NCBI RefSeq assembly: GCF_900156695.1
Contig: NZ_FTOM01000010.1
Span: 1 to 64,000, forward strand
Source: Phaeovulum vinaykumarii
Lineage (GTDB): Bacteria; Pseudomonadota; Alphaproteobacteria; Rhodobacterales; Rhodobacteraceae
DNA: 64,000 nucleotides
Direction: 5' to 3'
How positions within the stretch are numbered: the first letter of the stretch is position 1; each line of letters begins with the position of its first letter. A program made the position numbers and the translations under genes. Below, piece after piece: positions 25,496 through 53,121 of this stretch. Below the pieces are notes generated by a model that searched no databases, had not been told where the DNA came from, and saw nothing but the letters and a program-made list of their open reading frames with translations.

Positions 25496-29769
<4,274 letters not shown>

Positions 29770-30489
29770 TCAGGCGCGCAGCGCCAGCCGCGGTCCGTCG
29801 GTTTGTTCGGCCGGCGCGGGATCGCGCAGCACATAGCCGCGGCCCCAGACGGTCTCGATGTAGTTCTCGCCGCCCGTCACTTCGGAAAGTTTCTTGCGCA
29901 GCTTGCAGATGAACACGTCGATGATCTTGAGCTCGGGCTCGTCCATGCCGCCATAGAGATGGTTGAGGAACATCTCCTTGGTCAGGGTCGTGCCCTTGCG
30001 CAGGCTGAGCAGTTCCAGCATCTGGTATTCCTTGCCGGTCAGATGCACGGGCTTGCCGTCCACATCCACCGTCTTGGCGTCCAGATTGACCGAGATCTTG
30101 CCGGTGCGGATGATCGACTGCTAATGCCCCTTGGAACGACGGATGATGGCGTGGATGCGGGCAACCAGTTCTTCGCGGTGGAAGGGCTTGGTCATGTAAT
30201 CGTCGGCGCCGAAGCCGAAGCCCTTGATCTTGTTCTCGGTGTCGTCGGCCCCCGAGAGAATCAGGATGGGCGTGTCGATCCGGGCCATGCGCAGCTGGCG
30301 CAGAACCTCGTGGCCGTTCATGTCCGGCAGATTCAGATCCAGCAGGATCAGATCGTAATCATAGAGCTTGGCGAGGTCGATTCCCTCTTCGCCAAGGTCG
30401 GTGCAATAGACGTTGAGGTTCGCATGCGTCAGCATGAGCTCGATGCTGCGCGACGTCGTCGGATCATCCTCAACCAGTAGAATCCGCAT
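29770..30489 (-). pseudogene. ctrA: CtrA cell-cycle/GTA response regulator, interrupted by an in-frame TAG
   Basis: The frame from 30489 to 29770 encodes a 239-codon CtrA with near-perfect family sequence. The receiver ([21 protein letters not shown]51-type phospho-site in [13 protein letters not shown]) ends in RRSKGH at codon 122. Codon 123 (30121-30123) is TAG; homologues have Ser or Ala here, and TCG to TAG is one base change. The same frame then continues [17 protein letters not shown] and an intact winged-helix domain ([43 protein letters not shown]). Translation would give a 122-residue receiver; the DNA-binding part could start only from a GTG at 30069 without a visible ribosome site. 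It may be a nonsense mutation, read-through or a sequencing error. It lies downstream of sciP. Confidence 0.9.
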
Positions 30490-30541
30490 CCTGAGTTCTC
30501 CGAATTCATCCCTCGTTCACGATCAGCTTCACCGCAAATGG

Positions 30542-30556
30542 TTAACGCGATGTTAC
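30542..30556. promoter_or_regulatory. Putative CtrA binding site upstream of ctrA
   Basis: TTAA-CGCGATG-TTAC matches the CtrA consensus TTAA-N7-TTAA except for the last base. It is centred about 60 bp upstream of the ctrA start, fitting the autoregulation known for ctrA in Caulobacter. The call is by motif only. Confidence 0.5.
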
Positions 30557-30583: not shown

Positions 30584-30862
30584 CTAAAGTTGCCGATATT
30601 TCTGGATTGCGGTGACCTTCAGGGCAACTTCGCCATGTTTCTTGACCGCATCGGCCCACAGCGCGAACTCTTCCTCGCTCAGGCCATAGCGTTCCAGCAC
30701 CTCGGACAGGGGAATCAGCCCATGCGCCACGGCTTTTACGATGGTTGCCTTGCGGCTGGCCACCCAACGTCGCGTTTCCTTGGGCGGCAGATCGGCACGC
30801 GTCAGGATGCTGCCATCGGGCAGCGTCACGGCGCGCGGCCCATCCACTTTCTTGAGATACAT
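30584..30862 (-). CDS. sciP: SciP, CtrA inhibitory protein (DUF1153)
   Basis: A 92-residue helix-turn-helix protein beginning MYLKKVDGPRAVTLPDG with the core RRWVASRKATIVKAVAHGL and LSEEEFALWADAVKKHG. It matches Caulobacter SciP in length and sequence pattern. SciP binds CtrA-dependent promoters and CtrA itself to block transcription in the G1/swarmer phase. It sits 94 bp upstream of ctrA on the same strand, the arrangement usual in this order. Unlike ctrA it is intact. Confidence 0.93.
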   Translation of the reverse strand: MYLKKVDGPRAVTLPDGSILTRADLPPKETRRWVASRKATIVKAVAHGLIPLSEVLERYGLSEEEFALWADAVKKHGEVALKVTAIQKYRQL

Positions 30863-51163: not shown

Positions 51164-51313
51164 ACACTATACGGAGAGGTCTACTGCTTGGGTAGTCCCC
51201 TCTGCGCGGCCCCAGATGACGCGGCCAACCTGTGGCAGCAAGGGCGCAGCTTGGGCCCGGCCGGGGGCGGCGGCTTTCCGCCACCACCAGGGGAACACGT
51301 TGACACGAAAGGC

Positions 51314-51328
51314 GAACATTGGTAGAAC
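51314..51328 (+). promoter_or_regulatory. Alphaproteobacterial SOS box in front of lexA
   Basis: GAAC-ATTGGTA-GAAC is an exact match to the GAAC-N7-GAAC LexA operator of alphaproteobacteria. It ends 32 bp before the lexA ATG, so lexA is autoregulated. Confidence 0.9.
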
Positions 51329-51360
51329 TTGGGCGGCGAGACAGGGCGACGGAGCGGGCG

Positions 51361-52107
51361 ATGCTGACACGCAAGCAACTGGAACTTCTTGAATTCATTC
51401 AGAAACGGGTTGCACGCGACGGTGTGCCGCCCTCCTTTGACGAAATGAAGGAAGCGCTGGACCTGCGGTCCAAGTCCGGCATCCACCGCCTGGTCACCGC
51501 GCTCGAGGAACGGGGCTTCATCCGCCGGCTGGCGCATCGCGCCCGCGCCATCGAGATTGTCCGCCTGCCCGAGTCCATGGCCCGCGATGCCGCCGCTCCC
51601 GCCGCCTTCCGCGAAGATCAGGTGGGGTTTGCGCCCCGCGCGCTCGATGGCGGACGCACCGCGCAGGACAGTTTCCCGCCCGCCCCGCGTCCGCACGGGG
51701 CCGTCCCGCTGGACGGGATCGGCGCCTTTGAGCTGCCGATCATGGGCCGGATTGCCGCCGGTGTCCCGATCGAGGCCATTTCCGAGGTCATGTCCCATGT
51801 CGCCGTTCCCGGCACCATGATCGGCGGGCGCGGCCAGCATTACGCGCTCGAGGTCAAGGGCGACTCGATGATCGACGCGGGCATCAACGACGGCGATGTT
51901 GTCGTGATCCGCGAACAGCAGACCGCCGAGAACGGCGATATCATCGTGGCGCTGGTCGACGGGCACGAGGCCACGCTGAAACGCTATCGCCGCCGGGGCG
52001 ACATGATCGCGCTCGAGGCGGCGAATTCGGCCTATGAGACGCGCCTCCTGCGCGAAGACCAGGTGCGCGTGCAGGGCCGTCTGGTCGGGCTGATCCGCAG
52101 CTACTGA
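51361..52107 (+). CDS. lexA: LexA, SOS repressor
   Basis: A 248-residue repressor. The N-terminal winged helix ([34 protein letters not shown]) binds the SOS box; cleavage would occur at Ala133-Gly134 ([11 protein letters not shown]) with the Ser169/Lys207 pair ([19 protein letters not shown]). A linker of about 50 residues between the domains is longer than in E. coli. ATG at 51361 follows GGAGCGGGCG. In R. capsulatus LexA also affects GTA expression. Confidence 0.96.
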
Positions 52108-52263
52108 CCCACCCCGGCGCCTGCTACGCGCGCGCGCGCCCCGCAAGGCGGCACCGCTCCGGCCTTTTCTCGCCTTCACCGGCCTTTTCGCCCCCGTCCC
52201 GACACGGCGCATCTGGACCCGCCCCCGGTGCTGGGGCATGAAGGGGCAAGACAGGGAAGAGGC

Positions 52264-53121
52264 ATGCGCAGCTACACTCCGACGATCGGCGAACTCGAGG
52301 CGTTCTGCGCCTGTGCCCGCACCGGCTCGGCCACCGAGGCCGCGGCCCGGCTGAACCTGAGCCAGAGCGCCGTCAGCCGCTCGGTCGCGGGGCTCGAGGC
52401 GCGGCTGGGCGTCGCGCTCTTTCACCGCATCCGCCAGCGGCTGCATCTGTCGGATGCCGGCCGCGCCTTCCTGCCCGAGGCCGAGACCGTGCTGGCCCGG
52501 CTCGATCAGGCGGCGGTGGGGGTGATGGCCTTTGGCGGCAGTGACTCGGTCCTGCGCGTGGCCACGCTGCCGGGGTTCGGGCGCGCCTGGCTGGGCCCGC
52601 GGCTGGGCCGCTTTGCGCTGCGATGTCCGAATGTGGTGCTGGATCTGACCGCCCGTCTGGCGCCGGTGGATTTCGCCCGCGACCCCTTCGATTGCGCGCT
52701 GGTGCGCCGCGAACAGGCCACGGGCCAGATCACGCCGCTGATCGCCGAGAAGCTGGTGATGGTGGCCGCGCCCCAGCTGGTCGAGGCCGCCGATCTGGAC
52801 CAGCTGCCGCTGCTTCAGCAATCCACACGCCCCACGCTCTGGCTCGAATGGTTCCGCGAGACCGGCGAAGACCCCCGCCGGATCCTGCGCGGCGCCCGGT
52901 TCGATCATTTCGACATGGTGCTCGAGGCGGCGATGGCGGGGCTGGGCCTCGGCCTCGTGCCCGAGGTCATCGCCCGCGCACCGCTGGCCGAGGGCCGGTT
53001 GCGGCTGGCGTCGGAGAACCGTCTGGCCACGGGCGAAGATTATGTGCTGGCCACGCCCGAGGTCGACAATCCGACCGTGCGCGCCTTTCGCGACTTCCTG
53101 CTCGAGGAAGCCGCGCGCTGA
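52264..53121 (+). CDS. LysR-family regulator, probably of glutarate catabolism
   Basis: A 285-residue LysR protein. The N-terminal helix-turn-helix is GELEAFCACARTGSATEAAA and LNLSQSAVSRSVAGLEARLG; the effector domain follows from about residue 90. ATG at 52264 (MRSYTPTIGEL) was chosen. It is convergent with the CoA transferase and glutaryl-CoA dehydrogenase genes, 12 bp from the transferase stop, and LysR genes of the GcdR type often accompany gcdH. Regulation of those genes is inference. Confidence 0.88.
   Translation: MRSYTPTIGELEAFCACARTGSATEAAARLNLSQSAVSRSVAGLEARLGVALFHRIRQRLHLSDAGRAFLPEAETVLARLDQAAVGVMAFGGSDSVLRVATLPGFGRAWLGPRLGRFALRCPNVVLDLTARLAPVDFARDPFDCALVRREQATGQITPLIAEKLVMVAAPQLVEAADLDQLPLLQQSTRPTLWLEWFRETGEDPRRILRGARFDHFDMVLEAAMAGLGLGLVPEVIARAPLAEGRLRLASENRLATGEDYVLATPEVDNPTVRAFRDFLLEEAAR

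Follow-up and report, generated by a model that had tools for sequence, protein, structure and literature searches.

The only ctrA gene found in the draft genome of Phaeovulum vinaykumarii carries an in-frame TAG at codon 123, between a complete receiver domain and a complete DNA-binding domain (Table 1). We regard this as a genuine and recent loss-of-function nonsense mutation that leaves a lone receiver of 122 residues, and put the probability of this reading at roughly three in four. The mutation looks real and is of an ordinary kind, in a gene that is important but dispensable; its interest is raised by the recurrence of ctrA breaks across the Rhodobacteraceae. Positions without a genome label refer to the window, the whole stretch of 64,000 nucleotides that was analysed.

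Table 1. Features of the ctrA region in the window, and resolved ctrA breaks in other genomes of the family (survey numbers G).
Feature	Position	Strand	Description	Evidence
ctrA frame	29773..30489	minus	239 codons, interrupted at codon 123	ORF reading, Pfam, NCBIfam
Premature TAG	30121..30123	minus	codon 123, in the linker, directly 3' of RRSKGH	cta on the plus strand
Receiver domain piece	30124..30489	minus	codons 1-122, Asp at position 51 kept	ORF list, Pfam, NCBIfam
DNA-binding domain piece	29773..30120	minus	codons 124-239, sequence intact	Pfam, NCBIfam, alignment
GTAAC-N6-TTAAC box	30541..30556	minus	starts 67 bases before the ctrA ATG	motif search
sciP (DUF1153)	30584..30862	minus	CtrA inhibitor, intact, upstream neighbour	NF051866, 123.1 bits (cut-off 100)
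ligA	27583..29709	minus	intact, downstream neighbour	profile
recG frame	25496..28162	minus	long ORF, start not settled; ends in TAG	ORF list, profile
G307 ctrA	G307:C1:946500-948800; codon 184		TAA, second in-frame nonsense codon, another genus
G353 ctrA	about codon 125		transposase pieces on two contig ends	both sides seen
G006 ctrA	about codon 118		DDE transposase at contig end; receiver half not recovered	one side seen
G082 ctrA	about codon 202		transposase end at contig end	one side seen; 26.3 bits (family cut-off 29.2)
G088 ctrA	from about codon 180		foreign sequence with tyrosine integrase	inside a 729-kb contig
G217 ctrA	about codon 166		frameshift, short A run longer by one base
G022 ctrA	about codon 170		frameshift, two extra bases	390-contig assembly

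The first-pass annotation had reported a TAG after RRSKGH in an otherwise continuous frame, and both observations hold. With X at codon 123, the frame reads through as 239 residues without indels to the end LALRA, and the natural stop follows at 29770-29772. Pfam finds both domains in this read-through frame: a receiver at residues 3-112 (profile positions 1-110 of 111) and a complete Trans_reg_C domain at residues 145-221. In the list of open reading frames the two pieces appear separately, as 122 amino acids at 30121-30489 and 99 amino acids from a GTG at 30069. The NCBIfam equivalog for the Rhodobacterales CtrA, NF045991, matches the receiver piece over model positions 1-122 (218.8 bits) and the DNA-binding piece over positions 124-224 (204.2 bits), so that only model position 123 is missing. 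Scored separately against the cut-off of 350 bits, neither piece reaches it alone, and the gene does not qualify as a CtrA made as one protein. The window copy shares with the CtrA of this model its sequence, domain order, sciP neighbour, autoregulatory box and Asp51; unlike it, the copy cannot be made as a single protein by ordinary translation. Orthology with CtrA is nevertheless clear from the sequence, with 96% identity to the nearest relative, and from the adjacent sciP and ligA.

Taken by itself, the 122-residue open reading frame is a complete receiver with no output domain, as in single-domain response regulators. Residues 1-118 of the window protein align with a CtrA receiver of known structure (PDB 4qpj chain C); we take this structure to be that of a complex with ChpT, from Brucella. 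On sequence grounds, the receiver piece is the sole product expected from ordinary translation and the DNA-binding piece is probably not translated. Re-initiation to give a free DNA-binding domain was considered and rejected, as the first in-frame start is the GTG at codon 141, which has no clear ribosome-binding site. This codon presumably sits after the first strands of the DNA-binding domain. Translation would stop after codon 122, and the resulting lone receiver, though unable to bind DNA, would probably keep its fold and its phosphate exchange with ChpT. As a consequence of this loss of DNA binding, the CtrA regulon (flagellum, gene transfer agent [GTA] and autoregulation) would be off or much reduced, and we predict that the strain is non-motile and GTA-negative.

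Amber read-through by a suppressor tRNA, one of the options raised in the first-pass annotation, found no backing. The anticodon CTA is absent among 43 tRNA hits in the genome, of which ARAGORN typed 30 as loci and 13 as fetched stretches. This list is incomplete, since tRNA-Tyr, tRNA-Ile(GAT) and tRNA-Ala(TGC) are not among the hits; collapsed rRNA operons or a gap in the search may explain their absence. One gene, L173, was called Phe(aaa) by ARAGORN, but with its loop, cttaaaa, it reads as a Leu(TAA) tRNA. The recG frame ends in TAG and, together with the lack of a CTA anticodon, this makes TAG look like a real stop in this organism. None of the 56 aligned relatives has a stop at codon 123. 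Among the 310 genomes of the family survey for which match rows were listed, only the window genome and G307 have a stop inside ctrA, and none occurs in the other 149 rows of the main family listing of 150 genomes. We therefore see no basis for stop codon reassignment or programmed read-through; low-level leakiness of the TAG is possible. Leaky termination or a weak suppressor could in principle supply some full-length CtrA, so that the gene works at low dose. The conservation of the promoter box and of the remainder of ctrA would fit such an arrangement, and the gaps in the tRNA list leave some room for it, but in view of the anticodons recovered, the recG terminus and the rarity of inside stops we judge it very unlikely.

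Conservation of the gene was assessed over codons 1-229 in an alignment of the window sequence with 56 relatives (57 sequences). The relatives comprise 27 of the 80 loci from one search, all titled Rhodobacterales, and the 29 loci from the family search other than that of the window; the 53 loci left out of the 80 were 12 Rhodobacterales by title and 41 from other orders or of unclear origin. The window ctrA keeps all of the columns that are invariant among the relatives, 79 of 79 in the receiver and 74 of 74 in the DNA-binding domain, in agreement with the earlier description of the latter as highly conserved. The sole letter unique to the window gene is the stop. Relaxed constraint in the DNA-binding half is not seen in this alignment: among the 57 sequences the window copy shows the smallest mean difference in this half, and by the ratio of differences between the two halves it ranks 38th. 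The conserved columns and the absence of any unique residue other than the stop indicate that the mutation is young, or that it is an error. Codon 123 itself encodes Ser in 32 relatives and Ala in the other 24, the two residues that had been anticipated there. The three nearest relatives by sequence have Ala, however, and a single C-to-A change from TCG to TAG, which had been put forward as accounting for the stop, is therefore just one possible origin.

A sequencing or assembly error in a genome whose real ctrA is intact would likewise predict perfect conservation of the invariant downstream columns, and a draft of 27 contigs could well contain one or two wrong bases. The assembly has 3,481,684 bases and a completeness of 99.99. 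Local quality was examined with 20 queries from the window against Pfam or NCBIfam, three of which were ctrA or its pieces, with sciP scanned twice. Fifteen window genes besides ctrA were recognised by profile and none of the 15 is split. The open reading frame at 51181-52908 has no Pfam or NCBIfam match and may not be a gene. A second intact ctrA, named in the first-pass annotation as an observation that would count against a loss, was looked for in the draft genome and not found; the next response regulator is 36% identical and reaches 159.4 of the 350 bits that the CtrA model requires. Given the unbroken genes around it and the insertions in other genera described below, we consider an error unlikely.

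The box upstream of ctrA corresponds to the CtrA site reported in the ctrA promoter of Rhodobacter capsulatus (PMC6363796). It has one match in the window against a mean of 0.01 in shuffles of the window, and of the 56 relatives tried it precedes ctrA in 24 of the 33 for which the upstream region was located. The alternative pattern TTAA-N6-8-TTAA has no match in the window. Elsewhere in the genome, the ChpT gene is present and open (C12:20350), as is one flagellin gene (C6:177928) with both flagellin ends recognised by profile. Three GTA-type tail genes are open, on contigs C10, C19 and C23. That on C23 has genes of baseplate type and one for a short tape-measure-like protein as its neighbours, and it resembles part of an ordinary GTA cluster; we liken its order to that of the RcGTA genes. 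Those on C10 and C19 lie beside tape measures of 811 and 813 residues and look like parts of related prophages. For the flagellum and the GTA, this check of partners covered individual genes. As the box, SciP, ChpT, flagellin and the GTA tail gene all look intact, the loss of ctrA seems recent.

To place the window gene in context, ctrA was surveyed in 394 genomes of the family, one per genus and including that of the window. A match at an E value of 1e-60 was obtained in 366, and the match rows of 320 of these (150 + 10 weak + 160) were examined, the other 46 being set aside because of poor completeness or fragmentation into many contigs. A gene was called intact if the match extended to about codon 225 or beyond with no inside stop, a call made from match rows and not sequence by sequence. 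Of the 28 genomes that gave no match, 20 went through a second search at 1e-30: 11 again gave none, and of the nine with some match eight had nothing above 37% identity and one, G157, had a fragment of ctrA. Absence of the whole gene may thus also occur. In one of the genomes of the survey, G184 (2 contigs, 99% complete), the best ctrA match has 37% identity, yet a GTA tail gene is present. Another, G247, has three full-length ctrA-like genes on C7, C18 and C2, with 91%, 73% and 73% identity.

Resolved breaks in ctrA were found in eight of the 320 genomes, the window genome included (Table 1). They comprise two in-frame stops, three transposon insertions, one element bearing an integrase and two frameshifts. 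In G088 the end of ctrA is replaced by an adjoining element that carries a tyrosine integrase (G088:C1:674000-677000, 64-1101), possibly an integrative element for which ctrA is the target. This and the insertion in G353 are the firmest. Foreign sequence seen from both sides in G353 and within a long contig in G088 is not a matter of base calling, and it follows that real losses of ctrA occur in the Rhodobacteraceae; G006 and G082 agree with this from one side. Two different transposase types, in G006 and G353, have hit ctrA within five codons of the position of the window TAG. Several of the breaks elsewhere speak less firmly for the preferred reading, because they are seen at contig ends only or are short indels. 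Sequence errors could account for the frameshifts in G217 and G022, and misjoins could in principle account for the breaks seen from one side at contig ends. In three further genomes (G369, G351 and G324) ctrA ends at a contig edge, and these were kept outside the eight. Outside the 320, G157 (completeness 80, 260 contigs) has a ctrA start, at about 972-1205 of C131, that gives way to unrelated sequence near codon 78, within the receiver; the change lies inside a gapped scaffold and is a possible misjoin. No stops were reported in 49 ChpT matches or 63 flagellin matches, nor in GTA tail matches among the best matches listed; these genes are not matched controls, because breaks were sought more carefully in ctrA. 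A survey of natural ctrA breaks in the Rhodobacteraceae was not found in the open-access literature searched and, as far as this search extends, the breaks across several genera (8/320 genomes) are new here.

None of the eight resolved breaks lies before codon 118 (of about 229), an outcome with a probability of 0.003 under a uniform expectation, although the test is post hoc and includes the window itself. The value rises to 0.017 (8/9) with G369, broken at codon 43, and to 0.047 (8/10) with G157 as well. These two genomes go against it, and the clustering beyond codon 117 is a weak pattern, to be treated as a lead rather than a result. Such a pattern would be anticipated of a functional split regulator, in which the lone receiver is kept on purpose to damp the CckA-ChpT relay. 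The TAG does leave a whole receiver, and there is a precedent in Osp of Rhodobacter sphaeroides, a lone receiver-like protein reported to inhibit CckA (PMC9430884). By analogy, the window piece, which like Osp is a lone receiver, some 120 residues long and part of the same relay, may possibly act in a similar way. Osp, however, is a separate conserved gene that acts on the transmitter domain of CckA, and its reported inhibition of CckA kinase activity (PMC9430884) differs from taking phosphate from ChpT, whereas the window piece is a truncated CtrA for which any such role is conjectural. The receiver half was not recovered in G006, ChpT is not detectable in G082, and the 11 genomes without a match at 1e-30 may lack the whole gene. 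We give a split regulator the slimmest chance of the readings considered. There is scarcely more reason to expect that ctrA loss is a recurrent adaptive step in the Rhodobacteraceae, in culture or in nature, that preferentially removes the DNA-binding half and spares the receiver as a damper of the phosphorelay; this too would be highly improbable.

Two possible correlates of the breaks were examined and set aside. The GTA burden is not supported as a general driver: the window genome has three copies of GTA_TIM, but six of the seven other genomes with resolved breaks have one match (that of G217 being weak, at 5.3e-40) and G307 has two, and many genomes listed with an intact ctrA have several among the best matches listed. 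Decay of the regulon was equally unsupported, with flagellin absent in three of the ten genomes in which ctrA is broken or at a contig edge (G353, G217 and G369) against five of 40 others (Fisher p 0.33), the 40 being taken from the top of the ctrA ranking and not at random.

A genuine loss of ctrA is compatible with what has been reported for the gene in related organisms. The first-pass annotation held CtrA to be dispensable in the Rhodobacterales, and this accords with the available text of two reports: in the Rhodobacterales studied, neither growth nor viability suffered from the loss of ctrA (PMC8116508), and in Ruegeria sp. KLH11 the gene is described as non-essential, with growth unaffected in a mutant whose construct was truncated at codon 173 (PMC3692519). 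In Dinoroseobacter shibae, deletion of ctrA was reported to shorten the doubling time from 4.33 h in the wild type to 2.72 h, or 0.25 against 0.16 per hour in minimal sea water medium with succinate (PMC4046655). Faster growth of this kind would plausibly explain why ctrA is lost in culture. A ctrA transposon mutant of Phaeobacter inhibens is reported to be without flagella (PMC12363192), flagellar biosynthesis in Ruegeria KLH11 is described as being under positive control of ctrA (PMC3692519), and in R. capsulatus CtrA is placed upstream of GafA and is needed for the maturation and release of GTA (PMC6363796). As far as these accounts go, the mutants of D. shibae, P. inhibens and KLH11 have lost a dispensable ctrA, as in the window, and the loss of flagellar activation would be expected here also. 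They differ in having been engineered or made with a transposon, whereas the window gene has one nonsense codon found in a genome sequence.

Among the options offered in the first-pass annotation for a ctrA stopped between intact domains, a loss-of-function mutation is the best; the suggestion of laboratory adaptation that accompanied it stays at the level of conjecture. Relaxed or positive selection during isolation or culture would be the likeliest cause of fixation, since those members of the order that have been tested can do without ctrA and at least one species grows faster once it is deleted; fixation of the TAG in culture is itself conjectural. A gain in growth is not general, since the KLH11 mutants showed no change.

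If the mutation is real, there would be a trivial genetic reason why strains such as this one are scored as lacking motility and GTAs, and comparisons of motility, the cell cycle or GTAs could go astray where they draw on such genomes. The recurrence across genera raises the hypothesis that ctrA may often be lost when members of the Rhodobacteraceae are isolated or domesticated.
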